Shown here: piece by piece, positions 31,194 to 47,673 of the stretch | How the letters are laid out: each line of letters opens with the position of its first letter | How positions within the stretch are numbered: position 1 is the stretch's first letter | Program-made: the position numbers and the translations under genes | The notes under the pieces: model-generated | Databases searched by the model: none | Told to the model about the DNA's origin: nothing | Seen by the model: the letters and a program-made list of their open reading frames with translations, nothing else | Source: Streptomyces sp. NA02950 | Lineage (GTDB): Bacteria > Actinomycetota > Actinomycetes > Streptomycetales > Streptomycetaceae | Direction: 5' to 3' | Assembly: GCF_013364155.1 (NCBI RefSeq) | Contig: NZ_CP054916.1 | Location: forward strand, 8,214,001 to 8,278,000 | DNA length: 64,000 nt

Positions 31194-32150
31194 ATGCGTG
31201 CGTTGGGGTTCGGGGCGGCGACCATCGGCAATCTCTACCGGGCGATCACCGACGACACGGCGCGCGGCGCCGTCGACGCCGCCTGGGACGCCGGCGTGCG
31301 CTCCTTCGACACCGCACCGCACTACGGGCTGGGGCTGTCCGAACGGAGGCTGGGCGCCGCCCTCGCGGACCGGCCGCGGGACGCCTTCGTGCTGTCCACC
31401 AAGGTGGGCCGGTGGCTGGAGCCCTCCGGCCGGGGCGGCACCGACCTGGAGATCGGCGGGTACGACGTGCCCGCGGATCTGCGCCGGGTGTGGGACTTCA
31501 GCGCCGACGGGGTGAAGCGCTCGCTGGAGGCGTCGTTGCACCGGCTGGGTACGGACCGGGTGGACACCGTCTATCTGCACGACCCGGACGACCACTGGGC
31601 CGAAGCGGTCGGTACGGCCTATCCGGCCCTGGCCGACCTGCGGGCCCAGGGTGTGGTCGGCAGGATCGGGGTGGGCATGAACCAGTGGGAGATGCCCGCC
31701 GCCTTCGTCCGGGAGACCGATATTGACGAGGTCATGCTGGCGGGCCGCTACACCCTGCTTGAACAGCCCGCCCTCGGCGGGCTGTTGACGCTGTGCGCCG
31801 AGCGCGGAGTGTCCGTGGTGGCCGCCGCGGTGTTCAACACCGGGCTGCTGTCCCGCCCCGAGGTCGCCGACGACGCCCGCTACAACTTCACCCGGGCGCC
31901 CCAGGAGCGGATCGCCCGCGCCCGTGAGATCGCCGCCGTGTGCGCCCGCCACGGTGTGGCGCTGCCGCAGGCGGCGATCCAGTTCCCGCTTGCCCACCCC
32001 GCGGTGTCCTCGGTGGTCATCGGATGCCGCACGGCCGAGCAGGTCAACGACGCCGTCACCTGGATGGACACCCCGATCCCCGGGGAGCTCTGGGACGATC
32101 TGCGCGCCGAGGGCCTGCTCGGCCCGGAGGTGCCGGTGCCGTCACACTGA
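31194..32150 (+). CDS. Aldo/keto reductase
   Basis: A 318-residue aldo/keto reductase. FGAATIGNLYRAITDD opens the barrel; FDTAPHYGLGLSERRLG holds the catalytic Asp and Tyr, STKVGRW the Lys, and VYLHDPDDHW the active-site His region. VVSSVVIGCRTAEQV-like sequence near the end binds NADPH. The subgroup resembles L-fucose/D-threo-aldose dehydrogenases and pyridoxal dehydrogenase, so a sugar or lactol substrate is likely. Its 3' end overlaps the convergent Gfo/Idh gene by nine bases; it may or may not belong to the neighbouring biosynthetic cluster. Confidence 0.9.
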   Translation: MRALGFGAATIGNLYRAITDDTARGAVDAAWDAGVRSFDTAPHYGLGLSERRLGAALADRPRDAFVLSTKVGRWLEPSGRGGTDLEIGGYDVPADLRRVWDFSADGVKRSLEASLHRLGTDRVDTVYLHDPDDHWAEAVGTAYPALADLRAQGVVGRIGVGMNQWEMPAAFVRETDIDEVMLAGRYTLLEQPALGGLLTLCAERGVSVVAAAVFNTGLLSRPEVADDARYNFTRAPQERIARAREIAAVCARHGVALPQAAIQFPLAHPAVSSVVIGCRTAEQVNDAVTWMDTPIPGELWDDLRAEGLLGPEVPVPSH

Positions 32151-33200
32151 CACCATCACACCCCCTTCGCGGACGGAGCGGTACGCCGCCTCCGCCAGCC
32201 GTACCGCGTAGGCGGCGTCCTCGGCGGTGACGGCGGGGGAACGCCCGGAGCGGACCGCGCGTACGAAGTCGGCCGCGCCGCGGTGCATCGACGCCGTACG
32301 CCAGCCACGGGGATCGGTGGACACCCCGGGCAGAACGGACCCGAAGTCGGACGCGTCACGGTAGAAGGTCGCCACCGGGTCGGTCAGCTGGTCGCACACC
32401 ACCGATCCGGCCTCGCCGTAGATCTCGAACCGTTCGCCCCACGGCACTTCGAGGTTCAGCGCGATCTCGACGGAGAAGTGTCCACCGCCCGCGAACCGGC
32501 CGGTGACCACCGCGCCGTCCTCCACCGTGGACTTTGGAACACCGTGGTCCACCGACCAGTGGCGGGTGGTCGCCTGGAGGGAGACCACCGGCTCGAACAT
32601 CCACCGCAGTACGTAGAAGACGTGCGTCGCGGCGTCGAGGATGGCGGCGAAGCCGAAGTCCTGGTGCTTCCACGACTCGTCCGGATCGGCCAGTTCGGAC
32701 ACGGCGGAGCCGGAGATGAACGCCCGCACCAGCCGGACACCGCCGATCCGGCCGGTGTCCAGCAGCTCCTTGACCCGCAGATAGCTCTCCACGAAACGGC
32801 TGTTCTCCGACACCGACAGCACCACCCCGCGCGCCCGGGCGGCGTCGATCAGCTCCCGGCACTGCGCTTCCGACACCGCCAGCGGCTTCTCGACCGTCAC
32901 GTGTTTGCCTGCCGCCACGGCCGCCGCCACCACCGGATGGTGCAGCAGATGGGGGAGGAGGATCACCGCACAGTCCACACCGGGGTGTGCCAGCAGGTCC
33001 GTGTGATCGGTGAACCCGGGCACGCCCAGCCCGGTGGAGACCGCGTCCGCCTTCCTCCTGTCGATGTCGCACACCGCCACCACCTGTGCTTCGCCCGGCA
33101 GTGCGAGATAGCCCTCCAGATGCGCGGGACTGACCCGCCCCAGCCCGATGACACCGACGCCGAGCGGCCCCGATGTGCCCGCGTGGCCCTCCGGGTTCAC
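32142..33200 (-). CDS. Gfo/Idh/MocA-family oxidoreductase (cluster gene)
   Basis: A 352-residue NAD(P)-dependent oxidoreductase. Rossmann motif VGVIGLGRVSPAHLEGY near 13-29, the substrate-site HVTVEKPLAVSEAQCREL with conserved E-K-P near 93-110, and FAAILDAATHVFYVLRWMF with the conserved D-x-x-x-H. Inositol dehydrogenases belong here, and the operon also encodes inositol-3-phosphate synthase, so oxidation of a cyclitol is the leading guess. GTG start at 33200 overlaps the SDR stop (GTGA). Last gene of the leftward operon. Confidence 0.88.
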   Translation of the reverse strand: MNPEGHAGTSGPLGVGVIGLGRVSPAHLEGYLALPGEAQVVAVCDIDRRKADAVSTGLGVPGFTDHTDLLAHPGVDCAVILLPHLLHHPVVAAAVAAGKHVTVEKPLAVSEAQCRELIDAARARGVVLSVSENSRFVESYLRVKELLDTGRIGGVRLVRAFISGSAVSELADPDESWKHQDFGFAAILDAATHVFYVLRWMFEPVVSLQATTRHWSVDHGVPKSTVEDGAVVTGRFAGGGHFSVEIALNLEVPWGERFEIYGEAGSVVCDQLTDPVATFYRDASDFGSVLPGVSTDPRGWRTASMHRGAADFVRAVRSGRSPAVTAEDAAYAVRLAEAAYRSVREGGVMVSV

Positions 33201-33943
33201 TTCGCCACCCACCCCGAGTCGACCAGCAGGTCGGTGCCGGTGATGAAGGACGCCTGACGGCTCGCCAGGAAGGCGATGGCATGCGCCACTTCCTCCGGAC
33301 GGGCCCAGCGTCCCAGCGCCTGTTCACCCTCGCGCTCGGCCTTCACGCGCTCGAAGGGCTGCCCCAGCCGACGGGCCTCGATACCGATGTCCTCGCGCAG
33401 CATCGCGGTGTCGACCGAGCCCGGCGAGACGGTGTTGACGCGGATGCCCAGGGGCGCCAGTTCCCAGGCCAGCCCCCGTGACATCGACAGCACCGCCCCC
33501 TTGCTGGCGGCGTAGACGGCGTGCTGGGTCTGGCCGATGTGCCCGGAGATCGACGCCACATTGACGATGACGCCGCCGTCCCGCATCAGCGGTACGGCAT
33601 ACCGGCACGCCAGGATCGTCCCGCCGAGGTTCACATCGAGGGTCCGGCGGTAGTCGGCCCAGGTGGTGTCGAGGAAGGGCTTCACCAGCACCGTACCGGC
33701 GACGTTCACCAGCACATCGATCCGGTCCAGCCCGTCGAAGGCCCGGGCCACGGCCGCTTCGTCGCTGACATCGGCGATCCGGTGCTCGAACCGCTCGGGG
33801 TGCTTCGCCACCACCGGTGACGGCTCGGCCGGGGGCAGCACATCCACCCCGACCACGGTGCCGCCCTCCTCCAGCAGCCGGTCGGCGGTGGCCGCGCCGA
33901 TACCCCGGGCCGCGCCCGTCACCACGGCCGTTCGCGCGCTCAT
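33197..33943 (-). CDS. Short-chain dehydrogenase/reductase (cluster gene)
   Basis: A 248-residue classical SDR: TAVVTGAARGIGAATADRLL (residues 5-24), LVNVAGTVLVKPF (NAG-type motif), VNVASISGHIGQT with the catalytic Ser, YAASKGAVLSMSRGLA with Tyr-x-x-x-Lys, and VNTVSPGSVDT. FITGTDLLVDSGWVAK is the usual C-terminus. Start overlaps the preceding dehydrogenase stop (TGATG). Probably reduces or oxidises a hydroxyl of the cluster's intermediate. Confidence 0.92.
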   Translation of the reverse strand: MSARTAVVTGAARGIGAATADRLLEEGGTVVGVDVLPPAEPSPVVAKHPERFEHRIADVSDEAAVARAFDGLDRIDVLVNVAGTVLVKPFLDTTWADYRRTLDVNLGGTILACRYAVPLMRDGGVIVNVASISGHIGQTQHAVYAASKGAVLSMSRGLAWELAPLGIRVNTVSPGSVDTAMLREDIGIEARRLGQPFERVKAEREGEQALGRWARPEEVAHAIAFLASRQASFITGTDLLVDSGWVAK

Positions 33944-34863
33944 CACGCCTCCTCCGTCCGCGGTGCGGGCCACTCGACCCCGGCCGCCCCGGCGACCAGG
34001 GGGGTGATCCGGGTGTAGTCGTCGTCCGCGTGTCCGTCGTCGGCGAGCACCTGCCACAGATCGCGCGCGCGGGTGAGCATCGCCGGATTCATCCCGCGCC
34101 GCCCCGCGAGATCCAGCGCCACTTGGGCGTCCTTGGCGTACTGGCCGACGGTGAACCGGGCGGTGTACCGGCCCTCCAGGGCGAATCCGGGGATCTGCGC
34201 GGTGGTGGCGAACGAGGTGCCACTTCCGGCGTTGACCACCTCGAGCAGCACCTCCACATCGAGCCCCTCGGCCAGACCGAGCGCAAGACCCTCCGAGGCG
34301 GCGGCCAGATTGGCGGCGGCCAGCAGGTTGTTGATGGTCTTGGCGATATCGCCGTCGCCCGGGCGCTCCGAGACATGGATGATCCGCTTGCCGAACACCT
34401 CCAGGACCGGCCGGGCCCGTTCCAGCAGGGGCGCGGGTCCGGCGGCCATCACCGTCAGCACGCCTCGCTCCGCGCCCGCGACCCCGCCCGCCACCGGGAC
34501 GTCCAGCAGTGCCAGACCGCGCCTCTCCGCGTCCGCCGCCAGCGCGCGGGTGACCTCGGGATGCGAGGAGCTCATCTCCAGCCAGCACGCGTCCGGTTCC
34601 ATCGCGGCGAGGATCTCCGGTGCCACCGACGCCACGACCGTGGCGTCGGGCAGGACGGTGATGACCGTGGCCGCCCCGCGCACCGCCGCCGCGCAGCTGT
34701 CCCCGGTGCGTACGCCCATCGCGTCCGCGTGTGCCGTCGCCGCGGCCGACACATCGAATCCGCTGACCTGGTACCCGGCGTCGACCAGCCGCCCGGCGAC
34801 GGCGGCACCGAGACGGCCCAGCCCGACGACGGCCAGCCACTCGTCCGGGGCCCGCCCGCTCAT
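33943..34863 (-). CDS. Beta-hydroxyacid dehydrogenase-type oxidoreductase A
   Basis: A 306-residue NAD-binding 6-phosphogluconate/3-hydroxyisobutyrate dehydrogenase-like enzyme. It has Rossmann motif LAVVGLGRLGAAVAGRL, the substrate-binding DVPVAGGVAGAERGVLTVMA and the catalytic Lys in GDIAKTINNLLAAANLAAAS. Family chemistry is NAD(P)-linked oxidation of beta-hydroxyacids or reduction of imines (imine reductases share this fold, often lacking the Lys; here the Lys is present). Overlaps both neighbours (ATGA and TGATG), so it is translationally coupled. Confidence 0.9.
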   Translation of the reverse strand: MSGRAPDEWLAVVGLGRLGAAVAGRLVDAGYQVSGFDVSAAATAHADAMGVRTGDSCAAAVRGAATVITVLPDATVVASVAPEILAAMEPDACWLEMSSSHPEVTRALAADAERRGLALLDVPVAGGVAGAERGVLTVMAAGPAPLLERARPVLEVFGKRIIHVSERPGDGDIAKTINNLLAAANLAAASEGLALGLAEGLDVEVLLEVVNAGSGTSFATTAQIPGFALEGRYTARFTVGQYAKDAQVALDLAGRRGMNPAMLTRARDLWQVLADDGHADDDYTRITPLVAGAAGVEWPAPRTEEA

Positions 34864-35741
34864 GACTCGCTCCGGGTGGCCAGATAGGTGGCGGCGTAGT
34901 CCGCGTCGCCGTGGCCGAGCCCGATGGCCCGGTCGAACTGCCGGACCACCGCCTCCACCACCGGTACCGGCAGTCCGGCGTCAGCGGCGGCGTCCAGCAC
35001 CAGCCGCAGGTCCTTGCGGGCCAGCCGCAGGGTGAAGTCCGGCGGGAACTCCTCCCGGTCCATCGCCGAACCCTTCAGCCGCACATACGGGAGGCTGACG
35101 CCGCCTTGTTCGATGGTGGCGAAGAAGGTCTCCGCGTCGAACCCCATCGCCTTGGCGAAAGCCACCGACTCGGCCAGCACCTCCACCAGCGACAGCAGCC
35201 AGGTGTTCACCACCAGCTTCAGCCGGGTGCCGGTGCCCGCCGCGCCCAGCCAGAGGGTGCGCTTGCCGATCGCCTCGAACACCGGGCGGCACACCTCCCG
35301 CGCCTCGTCCGGGCCGGAGGCCAGCAGCACCAACTGCCCGTTCTCCGCCGGGGTACGGGTGCCGAGCACGGGGGAGTCCACGAACGCCACCCCGGCGGTG
35401 CGGGCCGCCCCGGCCCAGCCCTCGGTGTCCTGGATGCCGACGGTGCTGGACTGCACCCAGACGGCGCCCGGTGTCATCGCCTCCAGACCGCCGTGGTCGC
35501 GCATCACCGAGGACACGGCGGTGGTGTCCGACAGCATGGTCAGTACGAGATCGGCGTCCGCCACCGCCTCCGCCACCGAGGCGCACACCCGGAGCCCGGC
35601 ATCCGCCAGGGGTTTGGTGCGTTCTGCCGTTCTGTTCCAGACGGTGACCTCGACACCGGTCGCCGCCACGTTGCGGGCCATCGGAGCCCCCAGTGTGCCG
35701 GTGCCGAGCACCGCCACCCGGGTGGCCGGGGCTGCCGCCAT
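34860..35741 (-). CDS. Beta-hydroxyacid dehydrogenase-type oxidoreductase B
   Basis: A 293-residue paralogue of the next gene. Motifs: VAVLGTGTLGAPMARNVAAT, WNRTAERTKPLADAG, VDSPVLGTRTPAENGQLVLL and catalytic Lys in GTRLKLVVNTWLLSLVEVLA. Its FDAETFFATIEQGGVSLPYV differs clearly from paralogue A, so the two likely act on different intermediates. Start either ATG 35741 (GAGGCGAA upstream) or GTG 35774, which overlaps the TOPRIM gene stop as GTGA. Confidence 0.9.
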   Translation of the reverse strand: MAAAPATRVAVLGTGTLGAPMARNVAATGVEVTVWNRTAERTKPLADAGLRVCASVAEAVADADLVLTMLSDTTAVSSVMRDHGGLEAMTPGAVWVQSSTVGIQDTEGWAGAARTAGVAFVDSPVLGTRTPAENGQLVLLASGPDEAREVCRPVFEAIGKRTLWLGAAGTGTRLKLVVNTWLLSLVEVLAESVAFAKAMGFDAETFFATIEQGGVSLPYVRLKGSAMDREEFPPDFTLRLARKDLRLVLDAAADAGLPVPVVEAVVRQFDRAIGLGHGDADYAATYLATRSES

Positions 35742-35770
35742 GGGTTTCGCCTCGCTTCCGTCCGTCGGGT

Positions 35771-36379
35771 TCACCGCTTCGGCGCCTTGCTGATCAGCTC
35801 CAGGAGGGCGGGCTCGAACCGCTCGGGATCCGCCCGGTAGAGCGCGTTGATGTCCTCGGCCACCGGTTCGAGGTCGAGCACCTTGACCGCCCCGTGGAAA
35901 CCGCAGACGGCCAGCCGCCGCACGACCCGGTCGACGAAGTCGCCGACACCGTCGGGGTAGGTGTCCGGGTCGTCCCACTCGGCGACGATCACCGCGGTCG
36001 ACGCCGGTGCCAGATGGCCGGCGTCCAGACAGTCGACCTGCTCGGCGCCGGGAAAGCCCGCCGCGGCGAACCCCCGGTACCACAGCGTCCAGCAGGTGGA
36101 CTCGCCCTCCGTGAGCAGCACCAAGTCACGTCGTCGCGCGAACTCCCGGCTCTCCGGGCGCCAGTACGCGGTGACCGGCCGGTCACTCTCCTCGAACGTC
36201 GACCCGGTCAGCCCGGTGACCTGCCAGCGGTGGCGGGCCCGGCCCGGGTGGCCGTCGGGGGTGAGGTAGTCGATGTGGACACCGCCGCCGGGGATGTCCC
36301 GCAGCCCGTACCCGGTCAGGACCTCGACGGGGATGTGCTTGAGGACGGACAGCTCAGCCACGCTGGTGAGATCGGCCAT
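35771..36379 (-). CDS. TOPRIM-domain (DNA primase-like) protein in biosynthetic operon
   Basis: A 202-residue protein resembling the C-terminal TOPRIM part of plasmid/phage-type primases. The N-terminal third (HIPVEVLTGYGLRDIPGGGV, then HIDYLTPDGHPGRARHRWQV) matches the lead-in of such primases. The TOPRIM core has VLLTEGESTCWTLWYRGF (EGES at 91-94), a GFPGA turn, and an acidic EWDDPD (134-139). It ends KVLDLEPVAEDINALYRADP ERF, like the 'D-x-N-x-L-x-x-ADP-x-RF' end of primase relatives (space added by me). No zinc finger or helicase. Location between inositol-phosphate synthase and dehydrogenase genes, with coupled starts, argues for a metabolic role, but this is inference. Confidence 0.65.
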   Translation of the reverse strand: MADLTSVAELSVLKHIPVEVLTGYGLRDIPGGGVHIDYLTPDGHPGRARHRWQVTGLTGSTFEESDRPVTAYWRPESREFARRRDLVLLTEGESTCWTLWYRGFAAAGFPGAEQVDCLDAGHLAPASTAVIVAEWDDPDTYPDGVGDFVDRVVRRLAVCGFHGAVKVLDLEPVAEDINALYRADPERFEPALLELISKAPKR

Positions 36380-36388
36380 GACGCCGCC

Positions 36389-37423
36389 TCAGCCGTCGTT
36401 CTCGGCCGACAGCTCCGTGAGTGCCTCCCGCGCGTGACGGCTCTGGAGCAGTGGATCCTCCACCAGGGTCGGCGACTTCAGCAGCGAGGTGGCCGCCACC
36501 GGGAAGCCGCCCTCACCGCGCCGCCTGGCCACCGCCGCGATCCGCACCAGGTCGATGATCACGCCCGCCGCGTTGCTGGAGTCCTGCACCTGGAGGGTGA
36601 CATCCAGCTTGACCGGCATATCGGCCCAGCCGCGCGCCTCCACCGACATATGCGCCACCTTGCGGTCGCCCAGGTGGGAGACGAACCCGGCGGACGGGAT
36701 GACCGTCACCGCGTCGGTCCGCCTCACCTTCTGCCGCAGCGCCCGGTGCTTGGACGCCTGCTTGCTCTCGCTGTGGGTGCGCAGATTCTCGAAGTCGGCG
36801 TTGCCGCCCATGTTGACCTGGTACGAGCCGCTGAGCGTGAGGCCGCGCTCCTCCAGCAGGGCCAGCAGCGAGCCGTGCACGATCGAGCTGCCGAAGTGGC
36901 TCTGGAGATCGTCGCCGACCAGCGGGACGCCCTTCGCCTCCGCCTCGGCTCGCAGTTCGGGCAGCCCCGCCATCGGATCGGGGGTGCAGTTGACCACCGC
37001 GACACCGGCCCCGAGCGCCGCGCGGCCGTAGGCCCGCGCCAGCTCCGGCAGTCCCGTGGGCAGTGAGTAGAGCAGGACCTCGGCCTCCTGCTCCCGCAGG
37101 ATCTTGGCAACCTGGTCGATCCGCGCCTCGTCGTCCGGATCGGCGATCCCCGGCGCGACCTCCGGATCCTCCGTCAGGGGCAGGGATTCCAGCACCGGGT
37201 AGTTGTTGGGCTCGGCGAAGAGGGCATCCGACAGCGGCCTGCCCCTCTTGTTGTCCGCGAGATCGAAGGCGGCCACCACCTCGATGTCCGTCACCCGCAC
37301 CCCGCCGAGCACGGGATGGGTGACCCCGGGAAGGGGCCCGTCCGCACCGGACCGGCGGTAGAACCCGATGCCCTGGACTAACGCGGAGATGTTGTTGCCG
37401 ACACCAGCGACCGCCAGTTTCAT
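36389..37423 (-). CDS. Inositol-3-phosphate synthase family protein
   Basis: A 344-residue myo-inositol-1(3)-phosphate synthase. N-terminal NAD motif VAGVGNNISALVQGI, VVNCTPDPMAGLPEL, the conserved GDDLQSHFGSSIVHGSLLAL, NMGGNADFENL and the Lys-rich active-site segment ESKQASKHRALRQKV, followed by DVTLQVQDSSNAAGVIIDLV. It makes inositol-3-phosphate from glucose-6-phosphate. Start ATG 37423 follows AAGGAG; it is the first gene of the six-gene leftward operon. A dedicated synthase away from a housekeeping setting, with oxidoreductases and an aminotransferase close by, points to a cyclitol-derived metabolite. Confidence 0.9.
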   Translation of the reverse strand: MKLAVAGVGNNISALVQGIGFYRRSGADGPLPGVTHPVLGGVRVTDIEVVAAFDLADNKRGRPLSDALFAEPNNYPVLESLPLTEDPEVAPGIADPDDEARIDQVAKILREQEAEVLLYSLPTGLPELARAYGRAALGAGVAVVNCTPDPMAGLPELRAEAEAKGVPLVGDDLQSHFGSSIVHGSLLALLEERGLTLSGSYQVNMGGNADFENLRTHSESKQASKHRALRQKVRRTDAVTVIPSAGFVSHLGDRKVAHMSVEARGWADMPVKLDVTLQVQDSSNAAGVIIDLVRIAAVARRRGEGGFPVAATSLLKSPTLVEDPLLQSRHAREALTELSAENDG

Positions 37424-37843: not shown

Positions 37844-39094
37844 GTGAGCGCCGGGACCAAGGCCGCCAGGACGCTGCGGAGCAGGCCCGCGATCACCTAC
37901 ATGTCGGGCGAGTTCCTGTCCCAGAGCGGGACCTATCTGTCGGTGACGGCCCAGGCGTGGGTTGTCCTCGAGGCAGGTCACCAGCCGCTGGCGCTCGGTG
38001 TGCTGATGGCCGCCCGCTACGCGCCCGCCGCCTTGCTCGGCCCCGCCATAGGCAAGTACGTCGACAGCCGCGATCCGCGCCGGCTGGTGCTCCTGGCCAA
38101 CTACGCCCAGTCCCTGCTCGCCCTCGCCGTGATGGCCCTGGCGTTCACCCCCGGGTCGCTGCTGTTCGTCCCCTTCGTCATCGCCGGATCCGCCAGTCAG
38201 GTCTTCGCGATGCTCGAACACGCCGGGCGGATGGCCTATGTCGCGGCGATCGTCCCGGACGAGGCCCGCGCCCGGTTCGCGGGAGCCACCAGCTCGGCGA
38301 GCACTCTGGGCCGGATCGTGGGACCGGCGTTCGCCAGTGTGATCCTGACCTTCGGCCCGTCCGGGCTGTGCTTCGCGGTGGACGCGCTGACCTTCGTCCT
38401 CGCCGCGCTGCTGCTGCCCAGGCCGCGTTACGAGGTGCGGATCGCCGGACCCAGCCCGCTGCGCGAGGGGTTCCGGTACATCTGGTCGCTCCCCGCCGTC
38501 CGGGATCTGCTCATCATCTTCTCGCTGGTCAGCCTGGTGTCGTTCAATGTCGCCACCATGGTCCCGCTGGTGGTCCGGGAGGACTACCACAACGACCCGT
38601 GGGTGCTGGCCGCGTTCAACATCGCCTTCGGGATCGGCTCGTTCCTCGGCGGCGCGGTACGGGCCTGGCTGCGCACCAGCGCCGCCACCTCCGCCTTCCT
38701 CGGCCTGCTGCTGTTCGGCTCGGCGTTCGTGGCGCTCGGGCTGACGCCCTCTCTGGCCGTGGTGCCTGCCCTGCTGTTCGCGGGCGGATTCGGCAGGCTG
38801 ATGTTCACCGCGTCCTCCGAGGCGGTCCTCGCCGTCGGCGTCAGCCAGGAGCGCCGCGGGCTGGTCGGCAGCCTCTACGCGGTGGCGTTCACCGGGACCA
38901 CCCCGCTCGGCGCCATCCTGGTGACCTCGCTGTCGGGGAACGTGGGCACCAGCCCGACCCTGGTGATGTGCGGGCTCGCGGCCATCGCGGGCGGGGCCGC
39001 GTACGCGGTGTCGCTGGCCGTCCACCGCCGCCGCGGCGGTACGGCCACCGCGGACGAACCGGCCTCCCGGCGCGCCGAAACGGAGCCGCGATAG
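37844..39094 (+). CDS. MFS exporter (EntS/MFS_3-like)
   Basis: A 416-residue transporter with about eleven to twelve membrane segments. FLSQSGTYLSVTAQAWVVLE, LGVLMAARYAPAALLGPAIG and KYVDSRDPRRLVLLANYAQS (motif A-like D-x-R-D-x-R-R) are typical of the MFS_3 subgroup that exports siderophores and antibiotics. GTG start at 37844 follows GGAG. Placed at the head of the rightward arm of the cluster, it is the probable exporter or self-resistance pump for the product. Confidence 0.85.
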   Translation: MSAGTKAARTLRSRPAITYMSGEFLSQSGTYLSVTAQAWVVLEAGHQPLALGVLMAARYAPAALLGPAIGKYVDSRDPRRLVLLANYAQSLLALAVMALAFTPGSLLFVPFVIAGSASQVFAMLEHAGRMAYVAAIVPDEARARFAGATSSASTLGRIVGPAFASVILTFGPSGLCFAVDALTFVLAALLLPRPRYEVRIAGPSPLREGFRYIWSLPAVRDLLIIFSLVSLVSFNVATMVPLVVREDYHNDPWVLAAFNIAFGIGSFLGGAVRAWLRTSAATSAFLGLLLFGSAFVALGLTPSLAVVPALLFAGGFGRLMFTASSEAVLAVGVSQERRGLVGSLYAVAFTGTTPLGAILVTSLSGNVGTSPTLVMCGLAAIAGGAAYAVSLAVHRRRGGTATADEPASRRAETEPR

Positions 39095-39133
39095 CCACCC
39101 GGAACCCGCGCTGGTTCCCCGGGACTTCGGCCC

Positions 39134-39163
39134 TTGACTCCCGTGCGGGGCCGTGTCTACGCT
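39134..39163 (+). promoter_or_regulatory. Candidate sigma-70 promoter of the ACP operon
   Basis: TTGACT (39134-39139) and TACGCT (39158-39163) with 18 bases between. It lies in the 255-base gap after the MFS gene, about 190 bases before the ACP start, indicating separate transcription with a long leader. Confidence 0.6.
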
Positions 39164-39628: not shown

Positions 39629-40980
39629 GGCAGGCGATCCTCGGCTGGCTGGACGACCCGCCGCCGACCCCCGCCCTCGTGGACGCCGACGCGGACCGGA
39701 GCTGGAGCTACGCCCAACTCGCCGACCGGGTACGGCACCGGGCCACCGCCCTGGCCACCGGGCGGAAGGCGCTTGCGGTCTGTCTGGCCCGCCCCGACAT
39801 CGACAGCGTCACCGGATATCTCGCCGCCCTCGCCGCCGACCATGCCGTGCTCTTACTCGACGGCACCGCCGACCCCGCCGCCGTCGACGCCATCATCCGC
39901 GCCTACCGGCCGGAGTTCGTGCTCGACGGCGACCGCACCGTGCCTCTCGAGGGCGCGGCCGACCCGGTCCACCGGGACCTGGCAGTCCTGCTGTGCACCT
40001 CCGGCAGCACCGGCAGCCCCAAGTTCGTCCGCCTCAGCACCGGCAACCTCGACACCAACGCCGCCCAGATCGTGTCCTTCCTCGGTATCGGCCCTCATGA
40101 ACGCGCCGTCCAGAGCCTGCCGCTGCACTACTCCTACGGACTGTCGGTGCTCAACTCCCATCTGCTGGCCGGGGCTTCGGTGCTCCTGACCCGGTCCAGC
40201 CTGGTGCGCAAGGGCTTCTGGGACACCCTGCGGCACACCGGTTGCACCTCCTTCGCCGGGGTCCCCTCCGCGTACACCATCCTCGAGCGCACCGGATTCG
40301 AGCGCCGCGATCTGCCGGCGCTGACCACCCTCACCCAGGCGGGCGGCCGGATGGCACCCGAGACCGTGCTGCGCTTCGCCCGGACCATGCGGGACCGGGG
40401 CGGACGGCTGGTGGTGATGTACGGGCAGACCGAGGCCACCGCCCGGATCGCCTATCTGCCGCCGGACCGCGCCCTGGACAAGCCCGACCGCATCGGTGGC
40501 CCGGTGCCCGGCGGCGCCCTCTCGCTCGCCGACGACGGAGAACTGATCTACACCGGGCCCAATGTGATGCTCGGCTACGCCCGCGGCCGCGCCGATCTGG
40601 CCCGCGGCGACGACATGGGCGGCCGACTGCCCACCGGTGACCTCGCCCGGGTGGACGACGAGGGGCTGTTCACCATCGTCGGACGCAAACGCCGGGTGGC
40701 CAAGCTCTGCGGACAGCGCATCAACCTCGACGAACTCGAGTCGCTGCTCGCCGTCCACGCCACGGTGGCCACCCTGGAACTGGACGAGAAGCTGGTCATC
40801 GCCCGCGCCCCCGGCGCCGGTGCGGCCACCGCGGGCGACCTGGCCCGGATCGTCCGCGAGCGCATCCGCATCCCCACCCGGTTCATCCGGGTCCGGGACG
40901 TCGAGAGCATCCCGAGGACCACGTCCGGCAAGACGGACTACGCCCACCTGGAGGACGAGCTGAGCGCCGATGACGCATGA
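39625..40980 (+). CDS. Adenylation enzyme (AMP-dependent ligase) for the ACP
   Basis: A 451-residue adenylate-forming enzyme. LLCTSGSTGSPKFVRLS is the phosphate loop, VVMYGQTEATARIAYLPP the A5 motif, LPTGDLARVD the ribose-binding Asp, then GRKRRVAKLCGQRINLDELE and the terminal PRTTSGKTDYAHL with the catalytic Lys. It is shorter than the usual 500 or more residues because the N-terminal subdomain is trimmed. GTG start coupled to the ACP stop; substrate acid not predictable by eye. Probably charges the neighbouring ACP. Confidence 0.9.
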   Translation: MRQAILGWLDDPPPTPALVDADADRSWSYAQLADRVRHRATALATGRKALAVCLARPDIDSVTGYLAALAADHAVLLLDGTADPAAVDAIIRAYRPEFVLDGDRTVPLEGAADPVHRDLAVLLCTSGSTGSPKFVRLSTGNLDTNAAQIVSFLGIGPHERAVQSLPLHYSYGLSVLNSHLLAGASVLLTRSSLVRKGFWDTLRHTGCTSFAGVPSAYTILERTGFERRDLPALTTLTQAGGRMAPETVLRFARTMRDRGGRLVVMYGQTEATARIAYLPPDRALDKPDRIGGPVPGGALSLADDGELIYTGPNVMLGYARGRADLARGDDMGGRLPTGDLARVDDEGLFTIVGRKRRVAKLCGQRINLDELESLLAVHATVATLELDEKLVIARAPGAGAATAGDLARIVRERIRIPTRFIRVRDVESIPRTTSGKTDYAHLEDELSADDA

Positions 40981-42196
40981 CACCCAGACCCAGCCCGCCG
41001 CCGCGCCGGTGGCGGACACGGCCATCGAGGAACTGGTCCTCGCGGGCACACGGATCGTCGGCCATCTGGCACCGGATGTCGAGGCCGGTGTCGGCGTGGC
41101 GAGCTGGATCAACGTCAGCCGGTTCGTCGAGGCCACCGGCGACGAGAACCCCCTCTACACCGATGTGCAGTACGGCGCGGGCTCGGTGCACCACACCATG
41201 CTCGCCCCACCAGCGTTCGTGCTCGCGGTACGGATGCCCGACTCCTCCGGCGGGCTGGACCTCGACCGGTACGGGCTGCTCGACACCGTCCGCACCCTCC
41301 GGCTGACCTGGGACGACACCATCCGCCTCGGTGACCCGCTGACCGGCCGCGTCGAGATCGGCGCACTGGCCCGCCACCACGACGAGCGGGGCCGCCCGTT
41401 CGTCCGCGTCACCTCGGCCGCCGACTACCTGCGCCACGGGGTCCCGCTCGCCCGGGGCGCCTGCGAGGTCGACCTCACCCCGCACGACCGCGACCGCCCC
41501 ACCCGGCCCGTCCACCACTACGACAACGCCGAGGTGGAGCGGATGGTGCGGGAACTGGACACCGAGGAACCACCGCGCGGCGGACGGCCCCGGTTCTGGA
41601 GCGACACCGCCGTCGGCGACACCGGGCCCACCCTCCTCAAAGGGCCTTTGTCACTGGCCGAGTTGATGGTGTGGGTGTTCGCCGAAGGCCGTCCGGTGCG
41701 TGCCGGCAACCTCCACCACGAGCGGCTGGCGGGTCTCCCGGGACGGCAGATCACCAACCCGGTCACCGGCTGGCCCGCCTGGGACCGCACCGACGCCTGG
41801 CTGGACTCCGCGGCCGCGCACACCGCCGGACTGCCCGCGCCCGCGGCCCGCGGCGGACTGCTGTTCTCCCTCGCCGGGCAGTACGTGACCCACTGGATGG
41901 GCGACGACGCGTTCCTGCGGCGGCTCGAGGCCGGGATCCTCCGGCCCCTGCTGTACGGCGACGCCCTGCGGCTCACCGGCACCGTCACCGACCGCTACCC
42001 CGCCACCGACGAGGCCGGCCACCGCCATCACGTGGTGACCCTGCGGGTCACCGGGGTCAACCAGCGGCACGAGACCGTCCTGGACTGCGCGGCCACCGTG
42101 TTCCTCCCCGACCGGGGCAGGATGGTGACGCTGCCCGTGGTCGGCGGACTGGCACCCCTCGGCGGACCGGCACCCGAACACCCCGGGGGCGAGTGA
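40970..42196 (+). CDS. MaoC-like double hot-dog protein A
   Basis: A 408-residue protein with two hot-dog halves. The N-terminal half carries FVEATGDENPLYTDVQYG, the MaoC_dehydrat_N signature (Tyr where catalytic MaoC enzymes have His), and the second half carries VTGVNQRHETVLDCAATVFL. Members hydrate or dehydrate acyl-CoA or acyl-ACP. Start overlaps the ligase stop; the stop overlaps protein B (TGATG). Likely forms a heteromer or sequential pair with B. Confidence 0.85.
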   Translation: MTHDTQTQPAAAPVADTAIEELVLAGTRIVGHLAPDVEAGVGVASWINVSRFVEATGDENPLYTDVQYGAGSVHHTMLAPPAFVLAVRMPDSSGGLDLDRYGLLDTVRTLRLTWDDTIRLGDPLTGRVEIGALARHHDERGRPFVRVTSAADYLRHGVPLARGACEVDLTPHDRDRPTRPVHHYDNAEVERMVRELDTEEPPRGGRPRFWSDTAVGDTGPTLLKGPLSLAELMVWVFAEGRPVRAGNLHHERLAGLPGRQITNPVTGWPAWDRTDAWLDSAAAHTAGLPAPAARGGLLFSLAGQYVTHWMGDDAFLRRLEAGILRPLLYGDALRLTGTVTDRYPATDEAGHRHHVVTLRVTGVNQRHETVLDCAATVFLPDRGRMVTLPVVGGLAPLGGPAPEHPGGE

Positions 42197-43521
42197 TGCA
42201 GACCTTCGACGAGGCAGTCACCGAGTTCATCGAGCGCAGCCGCGAACTGCTCGGCCGGGAGAGCCCCGAGGACCGTCCGCCACCGCACCCGGCGCCCCTC
42301 GACCGCGACGCCGTCCCGGTGCCCAGCGCCCTGATCCTCGACCACGAGCTGATCCGCCGCTACGCCGGCACCATCGGGGACGACAACCCGCTGTACACCG
42401 ACCCCGGCTACGGGGAGCGGTCCTGGCTCGGCAGTCAGATCGCCCCGGGCACCGTCCTGGTCCACGTCCGCTACCCCGGTGACCACGGCGCACAGCGGGC
42501 AGAAGGCTACCCGGTGGCCAACTTCCTGTCCGGAGTGGCCTGGGAGTTCTACGACGTGCTGCGTCCCGGGATGCGTTTCACCTCCTCGAAGATCCCCCGG
42601 GAGATGACCATCGGCCGGGCCCGCCAGGCCCGGGTGATCTCCCACCACTCGGAGACCTTCTACTGGGACAACAGCCAGGAGCTGGTGGCCAAGGCCTACG
42701 GACGGCTGATCCACCTGCCGGTGGAGGAGATGGGCGGCACCCGGGTGATGCCCGTCGAACGCCTGGGCAAGCGGATGTTCTACGACCACGAACCCCACCG
42801 CTACGGCCCCGAGGAGACCGAGGAGATCGTCACCGCGCTGCGGCGGCAGTCGCGGCGCGGCGCCCGGCCCCTGTGGTGGGAGGACGTCACCGAGGGCGAG
42901 CGACTGCCCCGGATCGTGCAGCCGCCGTACAGCATCCGCGACGAACTGACCTACCAGTCGCTGCACCACGGACTCAACGCCGCCTTCGACCGCACCCGGC
43001 TGGTGCGCGCCTTCCGCCCCGCCTTCCAGCGGTGCCGGCTCAACCCCGACTTCGCCAGAACCCATCCACTCACCGGCTGGCCCTACACCGCCTACGACGA
43101 ACACGAGGACCGCCACCTCTCCGCCTACCGCTGCGAGCCGCTGCCGTTCGACTTCGGCATCCAGCGCGCGCAGATCCCGCTCCGGCTGCTCACCGACTGG
43201 GCGGGTGACACCGGCTTCGTCCACCGGATGTACACCTCCATGCGCAAACCCGTGTTCTACGGCGACACCGTGTTCTTCTCGGGCAAGGTGCTGCGCACCT
43301 ACCGCGCCGAACGCACCGACAACACCGGCCGCACCGCCACCTACCCGGCGGTGGCCATCGAGATCGTGGGTACCAACCAGCGCGGCGAGGTGCACTGCCT
43401 CGGATACGCCACCGTCTTCCTGCCCTCCCGGACCTCCGGCGAGCCGGTGCTGCCCGTCCCGCACCCGGAGCGGCCCGGGTACGAACCGTTCGACGTCCAC
43501 CGCCGAGCCGATTGGTACTGA
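42196..43521 (+). CDS. MaoC-like double hot-dog protein B
   Basis: A 441-residue relative of protein A: LIRRYAGTIGDDNPLYTDPG in the first half, IVGTNQRGEVHCLGYATVFL in the second. Between them is RLNPDFARTHPLTGWPYTAY with possible catalytic residues, and HLPVEEMGGTRVMPVERLGK. The parallel motifs show A and B are duplicated paralogues. Translationally coupled to A. Presumed acyl-ACP dehydratase or hydratase; active residues not settled. Confidence 0.85.
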   Translation: MQTFDEAVTEFIERSRELLGRESPEDRPPPHPAPLDRDAVPVPSALILDHELIRRYAGTIGDDNPLYTDPGYGERSWLGSQIAPGTVLVHVRYPGDHGAQRAEGYPVANFLSGVAWEFYDVLRPGMRFTSSKIPREMTIGRARQARVISHHSETFYWDNSQELVAKAYGRLIHLPVEEMGGTRVMPVERLGKRMFYDHEPHRYGPEETEEIVTALRRQSRRGARPLWWEDVTEGERLPRIVQPPYSIRDELTYQSLHHGLNAAFDRTRLVRAFRPAFQRCRLNPDFARTHPLTGWPYTAYDEHEDRHLSAYRCEPLPFDFGIQRAQIPLRLLTDWAGDTGFVHRMYTSMRKPVFYGDTVFFSGKVLRTYRAERTDNTGRTATYPAVAIEIVGTNQRGEVHCLGYATVFLPSRTSGEPVLPVPHPERPGYEPFDVHRRADWY

Positions 43522-43526
43522 CGCCC

Positions 43527-44831
43527 ATGGCCACCCTCGCCATCGCGGGCGGTGTCCCGCTCATCGAACCGCACCGGCACCGCCCCTGGCCCGACATCAC
43601 CGACGAGGACCGCCGCGCGGTGGACCGGGTGCTCCGGCGCGGTATCACCGCGGGGCCGCACGCACCGGAGCTGAAGGCGCTGGAGGAGGAGTACGCCGCA
43701 TACGTGGGCGTCCGCCACTGCGTGGCCACCAACGCGGGCACCTCCTCGCTGCACGCCGCCCTGGCCGCGGTCGGCGTCCGGCCCGGCGGCCAGGTCATCG
43801 TGCCCGCCTACACCTTCGTGGCCTCCGCGCTGGCCGCCGTCCACCAGGGCGCCGAGGTGGTCTTCTGCGATGTCGACCGCCGCTCCTTCAACCTCGATCC
43901 CACCCGGCTGGAAGCGCTGATCACCGACCGCACCCAGGCCGTCATGGCCGTGCACATCCACGGTGAACCCGCCGACCTCGACCCCATCCTCGCCATCGCC
44001 CGGCGGCACGGTGTCCCGGTGGTGGAGGACAACTCCCAGGCCCATGGCATCCGTTACAAGGGCCGGGTCACCGGCTCCTTCGGCCAGGCGTCCGGCGCCA
44101 GCATCAACCAGTCCAAGAACCTCTCCGGCGGCGAGGGCGGCCTGTTCACCACCGACCGCGAGGACCACGCCCGCACCGCCCGGCGGATGGTGCTCTACGG
44201 CGAGGACGTAACTGCGGACGCGGCCCGCCCGTACTGGTCGCACGGCGTGGGCTGGAACTACCGCGGCCAGGAGATGGTGTGCGCCCTCGCCCGCAGCCAG
44301 CTGCGCCGCCTGGAGGAGTACAACGCGCGCGCCCAGGCCAACGCCGAACGGCTCACCGCGGGGCTCGCCGGACTCAAGGGTCTCCAGCCGCCCCGGCACA
44401 GTCCCAACGGCGGCTGCTCGTACTGGAAATACGCGCTCCGGGTGTGCCCGGAGGAGCTCGGCTTCGACGGCGACCCCCGCGATCTGCGCGACCGCGTGCT
44501 GTACGCGCTGCGCGGCGAAGGCGTCGAGGCCGGCATCTGGCAGCCGCAGCCGGTCCCCGCGCAACCGGTGTTCCGCCGCGCCATCCAGGTGTGGCACCCC
44601 CGCACCGACGCGGTCCCGCTGCGCCCCTGGGACCGGTCGGAGTACCCGGTGGCGTCCGAGCTGTGCGATGTCACCCTGAGCCTGGGAACGGTGCGGCACC
44701 CGCTCTACGTCCAGGACGCGGAGCTGATGGACGGCTACATCAGCGCCGTGGACAAGGTGATGGCGAACCTGGACACGGTGCTGACGGCATCCGCCGAGTA
44801 CTCCCCGCGCCCGACCGACACCCCCTGCTGA
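43527..44831 (+). CDS. DegT/DnrJ/EryC1-family PLP aminotransferase
   Basis: A 434-residue sugar-aminotransferase-fold enzyme. HCVATNAGTSSLHAALAAVG, GGQVIVPAYTFVASALAAV, VVEDNSQAHGIRYKGRVTGS and the PLP-Lys segment ASINQSKNLSGGEGG are the family motifs. It normally aminates a keto-sugar or keto-inositol (as in scyllo-inosamine formation). With inositol-phosphate synthase and dehydrogenases nearby, amination of an oxidised inositol is the most economical reading. ATG at 43527. Confidence 0.92.
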   Translation: MATLAIAGGVPLIEPHRHRPWPDITDEDRRAVDRVLRRGITAGPHAPELKALEEEYAAYVGVRHCVATNAGTSSLHAALAAVGVRPGGQVIVPAYTFVASALAAVHQGAEVVFCDVDRRSFNLDPTRLEALITDRTQAVMAVHIHGEPADLDPILAIARRHGVPVVEDNSQAHGIRYKGRVTGSFGQASGASINQSKNLSGGEGGLFTTDREDHARTARRMVLYGEDVTADAARPYWSHGVGWNYRGQEMVCALARSQLRRLEEYNARAQANAERLTAGLAGLKGLQPPRHSPNGGCSYWKYALRVCPEELGFDGDPRDLRDRVLYALRGEGVEAGIWQPQPVPAQPVFRRAIQVWHPRTDAVPLRPWDRSEYPVASELCDVTLSLGTVRHPLYVQDAELMDGYISAVDKVMANLDTVLTASAEYSPRPTDTPC

Positions 44832-44852
44832 GCCCCTTCCCCCGGAGGTCCG

Positions 44853-45521
44853 GTGAACGTCACGGAAACCATCGAGTTCCTGCGCAGCAACGCACTCACC
44901 TTCTCCGCCCGCCCCGGGAAGCTGGAGGTGGTGCACACCATGGCCAGCCGGGTGGAGGCCGCCGGGGTCCCGGGCATCTTCCTGGAGGCCGGGGTGGCCA
45001 TGGGCGGATCGGCGATCGTGATCGCCCGGACCAAGGCGCGGGACCGGCCGCTGCGGCTCTACGACGTGTTCGCCATGATGCCCCCGCCGGGCGACCGGGA
45101 CGACGAGAAGTCGCACGCGGACCACACGGCGCTGCTGGAGGGGGTGGTCGGGCGCGAGGCGGACCGGATCTACCTCGAGCACAGCGGCGATCTGCTGGCG
45201 TTCACCCGGGAGAACATGCGCCGGGTGGGCATCGACCCCGACGAGGCGGGCATCGGCTTCGTCAAGGGTCTGTACGAGGACACCCTGAGGGTCGACGAGC
45301 CGGTGGCCTTCGCCCACATCGACTGCGACTGGTACGACTCGGTGCGGCTGTGCGTCGAGCGGATCGCGGACCGGATCAGCCCCGGCGGCATCGTGCTCTT
45401 CGACGACTACGTGGTCTACGACGGCTGCCGCCGGGCGGTGCACGAATGGCTCGGCCGGGACGACCGGTTCCGGGTCATCCACGCCGACCGGACACTGGCC
45501 GTCCAGCGGACAGCCGGATGA
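44853..45521 (+). CDS. TylF/MycF-family O-methyltransferase
   Basis: A 222-residue metal- and SAM-dependent methyltransferase of the macrocin O-methyltransferase type. IFLEAGVAMGGSAIVIARTK is the SAM motif, VAFAHIDCDWYDSVRLCVER has the D-x-D metal ligands, and ISPGGIVLFDDYVVYDGCRR follows. Known members methylate sugar hydroxyls. GGAGGTCCG precedes GTG 44853. Last rightward cluster gene; its end overlaps the convergent FemAB-like gene by 47 bases. Confidence 0.9.
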   Translation: MNVTETIEFLRSNALTFSARPGKLEVVHTMASRVEAAGVPGIFLEAGVAMGGSAIVIARTKARDRPLRLYDVFAMMPPPGDRDDEKSHADHTALLEGVVGREADRIYLEHSGDLLAFTRENMRRVGIDPDEAGIGFVKGLYEDTLRVDEPVAFAHIDCDWYDSVRLCVERIADRISPGGIVLFDDYVVYDGCRRAVHEWLGRDDRFRVIHADRTLAVQRTAG

Positions 45522-46431
45522 CCCGGACCCCGGCCATCAGATCGGTGCGATACGGGCCCAGATCGAGGTCGGGCGCGGAGGTGTAGAAGTGGCCCCAGCC
45601 GCCGAGCCAGCCGGGGGAGTCCGGATAGCCCAGGATCATTCCGGGGTCCTCCAGGCCCCCGAGGTGGAGCACCCGGTCCGCCTCGACCCCGCCCGCGTTC
45701 CCCAGGTCCTGCGAGGGCATCGGGGCGAAGCCCATCCGCCGCTTGAAGCTGAACAGCCCGGCCTTGGCGATATGGCCGTAGACATTCGGCTCGGTGCCCA
45801 GGCTCGTGGCGGTGAACCCCCGCTCCCGGCTGGCGCGCACGGCCTCCAGATAGACCGCCCGGGACAGCCCGGTGTCCCGGAACCGCCCGGCCACCGCGGC
45901 GTACCGGATCTTGGTGTACGGCGCGCCCGGGGCGGCCACCACCAGACAGCCGCCGAGCAGCTCCGCCCCCGCACAGGCCCACACCGCGAAGAAGGGCCCG
46001 CCGAGGATGGCCTCGCGCTGACCGCCGGCGTAGGGAACGCCGTGACGCATCGTGCCGATGTGGTGGTGGTAGATGTGCAGAAAGGCATCCAGCGCGGTGG
46101 CCTCGACGGGCTCCTGGACCACGAACCGCACCCCGTCCTCGGCCGCGATCCGGCGGGCGCGGCGGACGCTCCACCGCTCGCCCTTCGGCAGCCGGGCGAG
46201 GAACTCCTCGTCGCTGTCCCGGGTTTCGGTGATCCAGCTGATCTTCGCCGGTTTGGGTACGAAGCCACGGGCGCGCAGTGCGGACCAGGCGTCGCGCGGG
46301 GGTTCGGCGACCCGCAGCACATCGGCGTTCCCGCCGCCGTTCTGGACGCCCTCCGTGTGGCCCGCGCCGTCCAGCGCCTCGTCGAGCGTCAGCCACCGTA
46401 CGGTCAGCCCGTCCTCGTCGCGTGTCTCCAC
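45475..46431 (-). CDS. FemAB-like/GNAT-fold transferase B
   Basis: A 318-residue protein with ITETRDSDEEFLARLPKGER then WSVRRARRIAAEDGVRF, a two-lobed GNAT layout and SRAVYLEAVRASRERGFTAT, GTEPNVYGHIAKAGLFSFKR near the end. FemAB-like enzymes transfer aminoacyl groups, sometimes from tRNA (shown for a streptothricin-type pathway), making amide bonds. GTG start at 46431, three bases from the upstream paralogue's stop. It may condense the ACP- or tRNA-bound acid with the aminocyclitol. Speculative. Confidence 0.8.
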   Translation of the reverse strand: METRDEDGLTVRWLTLDEALDGAGHTEGVQNGGGNADVLRVAEPPRDAWSALRARGFVPKPAKISWITETRDSDEEFLARLPKGERWSVRRARRIAAEDGVRFVVQEPVEATALDAFLHIYHHHIGTMRHGVPYAGGQREAILGGPFFAVWACAGAELLGGCLVVAAPGAPYTKIRYAAVAGRFRDTGLSRAVYLEAVRASRERGFTATSLGTEPNVYGHIAKAGLFSFKRRMGFAPMPSQDLGNAGGVEADRVLHLGGLEDPGMILGYPDSPGWLGGWGHFYTSAPDLDLGPYRTDLMAGVRVIRLSAGRPVSGRRG

Positions 46432-46434
46432 CGG

Positions 46435-47673
46435 TCACCCCCGGCCGCGGTGGGTGTGGGCCCGCGCGATCCGGTCGAACCGCCGGTGCTGTATCCGGTC
46501 GGCCACCTCCAGATCGGCGGCCAGCCCCGCGTCGCCGGCGGTGCGCACATAGGCCAGAAGGTGCCGGGGTGCACACCCCCGGCTGCATTTTGTCTCGTAG
46601 GAGCCCATCGAGTACGAGATCGAGGAAATCCCCTCGCTGATGGCCACCTGGATCGGATGGTAAAAGAGGAGGTTGAAATAGAGATAGATGTCCGATCCCG
46701 CGGAATAGTCGAATCCGGGGAACCGGGCCCACCATACCGGTCCGTCCTCGATGAAGGTCACGAACCCCAGTGCGCGTCCCTGTCGCCGGGCGACGAAGAC
46801 CGTCATCGCGTCACCGACATGTTCACGCAGTTCCCGGTAATCGGCGACGGTGGCCTCCAGATCGGCCTTTCTGCCGTATTTCCGGCGCCATTGGAGCTCC
46901 AGGCCCGCCAATTCCGGGCCGAGCGCCTCGGCGCCGTGCCGCTCGACGGTCACCCCCGCTTCGGCGAACCCCCGCACCTCCCGCTGGATCGACCACCGGC
47001 GCTTTGCGCTGAAGCCGCGCAGATATCCGTCGAAGCTGTCCCAGGTGATCGGAAGGTGGCAGTCCGCCCCCACCGACACCCGGGTGTACCCCCGCTCCCG
47101 CAGCACGGTGTCCACGGTGGCGTCGGCGTCCTCGATGAAGTAGACCCAGCAGACCAACTCCGCCGAAGCGGCTTCGGCCTGCCGCTCCAACGCGTCCGTG
47201 GCGAGGCCGAGGGCGTCCGCGCGCTCCCGTGGGGACAGCGTCCCGGCGTAACTGACGCCCCCCATCCGCCCCGGTGAGCCGCTCACCACGGAAGGGCGGG
47301 ACTCCAGAGTCCTGAGCCGTCCGCGCAGCCGTGCCAGCGCCGCCGCGCCGCCGGGCTCGGCCGCGACGTCCTCCTCCGGGATGTCGTCCATGACCAGAAA
47401 GCGCGCCGGGTCATAACCCGGATGGGAGTCGCTGTCGGTGAGAAAGGCGGGCGCCCCCAGAACCGCTTCACCATCCGGTCCCGCCACCCCGATGAACCGC
47501 GGCTTCCCGTGAATGGTCGCGCTTCGGGCCCGTAACCAGTCGAAACTGAGATAGGCCGAGGGATGGGACAGACTCTCCCACCACTCCCGGGAGATTTCCG
47601 AGGGATCGGAATACGCATGGACGGTGAGTGCGGAAAGCGTGCCCTGGTCGGAATCGCGGCCAGATGAGTACAC
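46435..47673 (-). CDS. FemAB-like/GNAT-fold transferase A
   Basis: A 412-residue member of the FemAB_like (PF04339-type) group. SHPSAYLSFDWLRARSATIH, FSAKRRWSIQREVRGFAEAG, VTVFVARRQGRALGFVTFIE, FNLLFYHPIQVAISEGISSI and the C-terminal CSRGCAPRHLLAYVRTAG are typical. Start GTG 47673 follows GGGGAG with five bases spacing; the frame is open to 47745. Two tandem members, facing the cluster, are probably part of it. An inverted repeat TTGAC-N5-GTCAA lies at 47731-47745 upstream. Confidence 0.82.
   Translation of the reverse strand: MYSSGRDSDQGTLSALTVHAYSDPSEISREWWESLSHPSAYLSFDWLRARSATIHGKPRFIGVAGPDGEAVLGAPAFLTDSDSHPGYDPARFLVMDDIPEEDVAAEPGGAAALARLRGRLRTLESRPSVVSGSPGRMGGVSYAGTLSPRERADALGLATDALERQAEAASAELVCWVYFIEDADATVDTVLRERGYTRVSVGADCHLPITWDSFDGYLRGFSAKRRWSIQREVRGFAEAGVTVERHGAEALGPELAGLELQWRRKYGRKADLEATVADYRELREHVGDAMTVFVARRQGRALGFVTFIEDGPVWWARFPGFDYSAGSDIYLYFNLLFYHPIQVAISEGISSISYSMGSYETKCSRGCAPRHLLAYVRTAGDAGLAADLEVADRIQHRRFDRIARAHTHRGRG

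Follow-up and report, generated by a model that had tools for sequence, protein, structure and literature searches.

The DNA analyzed here (hereafter the window) is a stretch of 64,000 nucleotides from the genome of Streptomyces sp. NA02950 (9.77 Mb in two contigs), corresponding to positions 8,214,001 to 8,278,000 of contig NZ_CP054916.1. Between positions 31194 and 47673 of this window lies a cluster of 16 genes that brings together a homologue of cyclitol-phosphate synthases (IPS), a small protein with a TOPRIM fold, an acyl carrier protein (ACP) with its accompanying enzymes, and genes for tailoring and export. A first-pass annotation, made from the sequence alone, had delimited an uncharacterized cyclitol-type cluster at 32142..47673. 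All the genes it named were recovered as open frames and in family searches, while its left border has to be moved slightly outwards, since the aldo/keto reductase gene at 31194-32150 also belongs to the cluster. The genes are the following:

31194..32150, + strand: AKR, aldo/keto reductase, L-galactose dehydrogenase/IolS-like (PF00248, E 3.5e-48; best PDB matches to L-galactose dehydrogenase; orthologue in 5/5 IPS-type clusters)
32142..33212, - strand: Gfo/Idh/MocA oxidoreductase, inositol-2-dehydrogenase-like (PF01408, E 1.3e-26; TIGR04380, 134.9 bits, below the cutoff of 355)
33197..33943, - strand: short-chain dehydrogenase/reductase (SDR) family oxidoreductase (PF13561, E 1.6e-59)
33943..34863, - strand: HIBDH2, beta-hydroxyacid dehydrogenase family (PF03446 and PF14833)
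34860..35774, - strand: HIBDH1, beta-hydroxyacid dehydrogenase family (PF03446 and PF14833; also the reductive-aminase-like C-terminal domain PF21761, 30.8 bits, cutoff 27)
35771..36379, - strand: TOPRIM-fold protein of primase type, 202 amino acids (predicted structure)
36389..37423, - strand: IPS, Ari2-type cyclitol-phosphate synthase homologue (PDB 6k96, 349 bits vs. INO1 1gr0, 192 bits; tree; alignment columns)
37844..39094, + strand: MFS exporter (PF07690, E 3.4e-23; one reading frame with TylF in two relatives)
39350..39628, + strand: ACP with a WDSLGH phosphopantetheine site (PF00550, 24.1 bits, cutoff 20.8; sequence)
39625..40980, + strand: AMP-forming acyl-ACP ligase (PF00501, E 2.5e-41; cispentacin ligase AmcH model, 66.6 bits, below the cutoff of 370)
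40970..42196, + strand: MaoC1, double hot-dog protein (PF13452, E 2.6e-10)
42196..43521, + strand: MaoC2, double hot-dog protein (PF13452, E 8.7e-06; low-confidence model, 63.6, matching the MaoC dehydratases 5i7n and 4v12)
43527..44831, + strand: DegT-family pyridoxal phosphate-dependent aminotransferase (PF01041, E 2.4e-83; orthologues of 66-71% identity in loci L006-L009)
44853..45521, + strand: TylF-type O-methyltransferase (PF05711, E 2.1e-23; PDB matches to mycinamicin O-methyltransferase and NovP)
45475..46431, - strand: FemAB2, lineage-specific FemAB/GNAT-like transferase (PF04339, 20.8 bits, below the cutoff of 27; in 3/5 clusters)
46435..47673, - strand: FemAB1, conserved FemAB/GNAT-like transferase (PF04339, 49.3 bits, cutoff 27; PF13480, 30.8 bits, cutoff 22; in 5/5 clusters)

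The start codons are those chosen by us. A GC-periodicity coding scan recovered 12 of the 16 genes, and those for SDR, HIBDH1, ACP and MaoC2, which lie inside longer open frames, were called from Pfam matches and homologues. The coupled starts reported earlier for the six-gene leftward operon were confirmed: IPS and the TOPRIM gene are separated by 9 bases, and the successive junctions after that overlap by 4, 4, 1 and up to 16 bases. FemAB2 and FemAB1, on the - strand, face the rightward arm formed by MFS, ACP, ligase, MaoC1, MaoC2, DegT and TylF. Scans of the window for tRNA genes and Rfam families gave no matches.

The conservation of the cluster was evaluated with a pattern scan based on the MaoC2 alignment, over a collection of genomes from 84,980 species (one genome each), which identified eight loci; this number is a lower bound, as the scan requires exact peptide patterns. 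Both arms are present in five clusters: that of the window and those of Streptomyces sp. NEAU-Y11 (loci L003 and L015), S. fumanus (L004 and L016), Mangrovihabitans endophyticus (L006 and L018) and S. orinoci (L009 and L020). All five share 15 genes (AKR, Gfo/Idh, SDR, HIBDH2, HIBDH1, TOPRIM, IPS, MFS, ACP, ligase, MaoC1, MaoC2, DegT, TylF and FemAB1), and FemAB2 is found in three. The arms are divergent in the window, NEAU-Y11 and S. fumanus, while in Mangrovihabitans and S. orinoci the same genes all point in one direction. That the gene set is kept while its order changes is strong evidence for a joint function, in agreement with the single cluster first proposed, and the idea that the arms are chance neighbours was rejected, since they are re-ordered yet together in two of the four relatives holding both. 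Protein searches suggest further carriers, namely a Pseudonocardiaceae metagenome-assembled genome (MAG) and a JGI contig with IPS, TOPRIM and MaoC2. In NEAU-Y11, FemAB2 matches as two pieces in different frames (L003:13300-14212) and could be a broken gene. A cyclase of the IPS clade and a TOPRIM gene are also found in genome G314, from the same genus as the host, inside a different large cluster (L025:6430-17372 and L030) with a B12 radical-SAM enzyme, RidA, a PfkB kinase, a P450, a DegT protein, a glycosyltransferase and carrier proteins.

IPS had been annotated as an inositol-3-phosphate synthase. The family assignment agrees with a match to Pfam PF01658 (Inos-1-P_synth, E 4.5e-22), while the more specific function is not supported: the protein reaches only 204.1 bits with TIGR03450, the equivalog model of actinobacterial (mycothiol) INO1, whose cutoff is 638. 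In a search of PDB with the single protein, the best match was Ari2 (6k96, 349 bits), named there 'Five-membered-cyclitol-phosphate synthase', vs. 192 bits for INO1 (1gr0); the profile of the IPS clade gave 441 bits with 6k96 and 265 with Mycobacterium tuberculosis INO1. Sequence identity is 55% with Ari2, 38% with M. tuberculosis INO1 and 37% with the INO1 of the host, a canonical second gene located elsewhere in the genome and 81% identical to 1gr0. Each of the four two-arm relatives also carries a second gene within the INO1 score range (261-266 bits). In a tree of 53 rows (43 of the best 120 of 390 matches, plus 10 others), the two INO1 rows are separated from Ari2 and the IPS clade at 100/100. 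The same grouping was obtained when alignment columns were compared among 20 rows of the IPS clade, 12 of the Ari2 side and two of INO1: 83 columns are common to all, including K221, K225, K255 and K316, which we take to be lysines with a catalytic role, and among the 45 informative ones 35 are shared by the clade with the Ari2 side only, none with INO1 only, and 10 are the clade's own (in one of these ten, Ari2 and INO1 agree). Canonical inositol synthesis was rejected on the TIGR03450 score, the identities, the tree and the columns.

According to a review (PMC11188666), the substrate of Ari2 is fructose 6-phosphate, its cofactor NAD+ and its product a five-membered cyclitol phosphate. This reaction and the grouping of IPS on the Ari2 side lead us to predict the same kind of ring, or a close variant, as product of the enzyme in this cluster, that is, a cyclopentitol rather than inositol. 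The cyclitol origin of the product is thus supported, while the start from myo-inositol is not. The earlier version of the pathway, with myo-inositol 3-phosphate leading to an O-methylated, acylated six-membered aminocyclitol, would be in line with the Pfam family and with the resemblance of Gfo/Idh to inositol 2-dehydrogenase, below the cutoff of that model; we regard it as very improbable, given the lack of INO1-like columns, the low equivalog score and the canonical INO1 elsewhere in the host genome. In a sample of the class (394 genomes), two Ari2-like genes were found besides that of the window, both outside the IPS clade. In Micromonospora chokoriensis, an Ari2-like gene without TOPRIM (L029:9501-10397) is located on a different contig from the ACP genes of this strain, and is flanked by glycogen-metabolism-like genes, judging the neighbours by eye.

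The TOPRIM protein gave no Pfam or NCBIfam match at E 0.001. Its predicted structure shows a primase-type fold with a conserved Glu and an acidic pair, which constitute the TOPRIM motif; this fold is well known from enzymes acting on DNA and RNA. Residues 3-202 of the model are covered by the primase-core match, leaving no room, in a protein of 202 residues, for the additional zinc-binding or helicase domains of a replication primase. The presence of the gene follows that of the cyclase, in 6/6 genomes with the IPS clade vs. 0/6 comparison genomes. At least seven relatives were obtained in a search with the protein, a lower bound given that those of L006 and L009, around 50% identical, were missed. 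Tentatively, and with somewhat less than an even chance in our view, the primase fold could here have been recruited for small-molecule chemistry, with the phosphorylated ring made by the cyclase as substrate: the protein would remove its phosphate or, in a bolder proposal, join a nucleotide to it in the way that primases join nucleotides, and would be an obligate partner of one Ari2-like cyclase clade.

In the other arm, ACP, MaoC1 and MaoC2 are present in the eight loci found via MaoC2, with the ligase between ACP and MaoC1 in seven of them; in L007, a ligase relative (42% identity) lies around 2.3 kb from ACP, on the other strand. DegT comes next in six of the eight loci, and L005 ends 267 bases past MaoC2. 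ACP, ligase, MaoC1, MaoC2 and usually DegT are a portable block. In Umezawaea tangerina (L008) it adjoins a cyclase nearest to 2-deoxy-scyllo-inosose (DOI) synthase (248 vs. 136 bits), and in M. chokoriensis (L007) one nearest to 4p53 (141 vs. 125 bits), which we take to be a valiolone synthase; each of these loci also encodes an ATP-grasp enzyme and two additional DegT proteins. In both regions (L007:4956-19995 and L008:4750-17996), the cyclase combined with the ACP block is a sugar-phosphate cyclase of the dehydroquinate synthase family, and L007 also has a free-standing condensation domain and an adenylating enzyme. The DegT protein of the block is 66-71% identical across L006-L009, two of which are the loci with other cyclases. 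Since it is conserved whatever the cyclase, its substrate would be the shared ACP-bound group and not the ring, which weakens the earlier equation of an inositol synthase plus DegT with an aminocyclitol. The double hot-dog fold of the MaoC pair is backed by PF13452 and by the fold matches of MaoC2, whose model (confidence 63.6) is too weak for reading an active site.

The ACP and ligase also gave weak matches to the AmcB and AmcH models of the cispentacin pathway, and the cluster has five oxidoreductases that could form an acid. The nearest PDB match of DegT is 8gyh, which we take, unconfirmed, to be an aminotransferase for carrier-protein-bound substrates. These features would fit a route in which the ring itself is oxidized to a carboxylic acid and loaded onto the ACP, MaoC1 and MaoC2 dehydrate it, and DegT aminates the tethered ring, giving a cispentacin-like cyclic amino acid extended by FemAB1. 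We consider this quite unlikely: the AmcB and AmcH scores are far under their cutoffs, and the block also adjoins the cyclases of L007 and L008, whose products presumably carry no carboxyl group.

Regarding the tailoring genes, two FemAB-like genes had been described. FemAB1 exceeds the cutoff of the FemAB_like family (49.3 vs. 27 bits) and is present in all five clusters, while FemAB2 falls below it (20.8) and is found in three. FemAB-like enzymes with a GNAT fold use aminoacyl-tRNA in several antibiotic pathways and form amide bonds (PMC12945691), and the acylation or aminoacylation and the O-methylation proposed earlier are plausible from the enzyme families. MFS and TylF constitute one continuous frame in Mangrovihabitans (632 amino acids, L006:20192 to L018:1254) and in S. 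orinoci (619 amino acids, L020:122-1981); methylation may be coupled to export. HIBDH1, which passes the PF21761 cutoff, is a possible second nitrogen source.

Taking these data together, we favor, at about an even chance, a cluster for an exported small molecule in which an Ari2-type ring line and an ACP-based acyl line are joined, with DegT acting on an ACP-bound intermediate. The most likely product is a cyclopentitol that is acylated, O-methylated and exported. The data show the gene set and its conservation, the Ari2-side grouping of the cyclase, the TOPRIM fold (from a model) with its linkage to the cyclase, and the portability of the ACP block; in the scheme that follows, all substrates, the sequence of steps and the amide or ester nature of the link are inferred. 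The NAD-dependent Ari2-type enzyme would close fructose 6-phosphate to a hydroxymethyl-cyclopentitol phosphate, on which the TOPRIM protein may act by metal-dependent phosphate removal or nucleotide transfer, and Gfo/Idh, SDR, both beta-hydroxyacid dehydrogenases and AKR would set the pattern of hydroxyl and keto groups. In the acyl line, the ligase would load an acid onto the ACP, MaoC1 and MaoC2, as a paired hot-dog dehydratase or hydratase, would introduce a functional group into this acid or shift one, and amination of the ACP-bound intermediate by DegT would follow. FemAB1, together with FemAB2 where present, might then acylate or aminoacylate the product, a step that in other clusters with the ACP block would fall to the ATP-grasp and condensation proteins. 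TylF would methylate a hydroxyl and the MFS protein would export the product.

Several observations weigh against this proposal. On the side of the ring, the branch leading to INO1 in the tree is very long, and long branches are flagged by the program; the IPS clade (22 rows) is sister to Ari2 and outside the Ari2 subclade (100/97 against the grouped rows, with 28 ungrouped rows uncounted), and this position, together with its 10 own columns, means that the product of IPS may differ from that of Ari2. The role given to the TOPRIM protein derives from the modeled fold, the acidic residues and the linkage, and in G314 an inositol-monophosphatase-family gene lies around 20 kb from the cyclase, so that TOPRIM need not be a phosphatase there. 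In MaoC1 and MaoC2, the N-terminal halves read GDxNPLY, with Tyr replacing the His that presumably forms the usual Asp/His dyad of hydratases at that position, which makes catalysis uncertain. In addition, co-conservation of the arms, a condition that the first-pass annotation had set for its reading, came out mixed. Five clusters keep both arms, two of these in a changed order, and against this 4/9 clusters with MaoC2 (that of the window included) have no IPS arm, G314 has IPS and TOPRIM and no MaoC2 at E 1e-20, and a contig of S. xiamenensis has cyclase and TOPRIM, with no MaoC2 among the best 120 of 152 matches listed.

The argument on the substrate of DegT is likewise indirect, and the alternative is that DegT aminates a ketone of the same Ari2-type ring, giving an aminocyclopentitol. 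In this view the new amine would be acylated by FemAB1, and providing that acyl group would be the sole task of the ACP, the ligase and both MaoC proteins. The PDB matches of DegT include glutamine--scyllo-inositol and glutamine:DOI aminotransferases, the G314 cluster combines a DegT gene with IPS and TOPRIM in a genome lacking MaoC2 (E 1e-20), and no DegT relative was detected at E 1e-60 anywhere in genomes G396 (that of L005, a MAG) or G401 (that of L010), both of which hold the rest of the block; amide formation by FemAB-type enzymes in known pathways (PMC12945691) would also fit an acylated amine. Against it, the 66-71% identical orthologue accompanies the block beside the DOI synthase-like and the 4p53-nearest cyclases, each with its own extra pair of DegT genes, and the DegT protein of G314 is only 38% identical to that of the block. 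Amination of the ring seems unlikely to us, less so than the cispentacin-like and inositol routes, and we keep DegT on the ACP-bound intermediate in the favored pathway.

Downstream of the cluster (47794-56918) there are a MEDS-domain gene and a gene for a PucR-type regulator, followed by dnaK, grpE, dnaJ and a clpB-type gene. MEDS and PucR (47794-50214) were rejected as parts of the cluster, having no match in L003, where a SpoIIE-type gene occupies their place in NEAU-Y11 next to the same chaperone genes; the chaperone genes beyond 50214 were also rejected. On the other side, 26891-27946 encodes a protein of 351 amino acids with no Pfam match at E 1e-5 and a 77% identical relative in NEAU-Y11.

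The enzyme families found here are known, and the orphan cluster they form is real and conserved. As in the initial annotation, no described pathway with this gene set was found, nor any description of the cyclase clade or its TOPRIM partner, in the open-licence literature, a limited search whose scope excluded most subscription journals, MIBiG and antiSMASH. The results point towards cyclopentitol products of an undescribed class and to a new clade of ring-forming enzymes amenable to testing, and tie a fold of nucleic acid enzymes to a metabolic cyclase. The ACP block, which seems to have been combined with sugar-phosphate cyclases of three kinds, offers a handle for finding more clusters of this type. 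The cluster is worth biochemical work.

When compared with known systems, IPS has in common with canonical actinobacterial INO1 (TIGR03450) the 83 columns and the four lysines, and differs from it in its 37-38% identity and a score far under the family cutoff. The TOPRIM protein shares its core with primases of the DnaG and T7 gp4 type, and departs from them in being a stand-alone protein of 202 residues linked to a cyclitol cyclase. The likeness to the cispentacin proteins AmcB and AmcH is that of a free-standing ACP with an adenylating ligase; the scores with those models are 19.5 and 66.6 bits vs. cutoffs of 80 and 370, and no ketosynthase was found among the Pfam matches of 31194-47673. 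With the FemXAB/GNAT-fold aminoacyl-tRNA transferases PacB, VlmA and Orf11 of antibiotic pathways (PMC12945691), FemAB1 shares the FemAB_like family above the cutoff; the likeness is one of family match, and FemAB2 lies below that cutoff. Finally, the comparison with the aristeromycin pathway concerns the cyclase alone: IPS is on the same side of the family as Ari2 (6k96), with 35 of the 45 informative columns Ari2-like and none INO1-like, while it belongs to a sister clade with 55% identity, and here it is accompanied by the ACP block, TOPRIM, FemAB and TylF.

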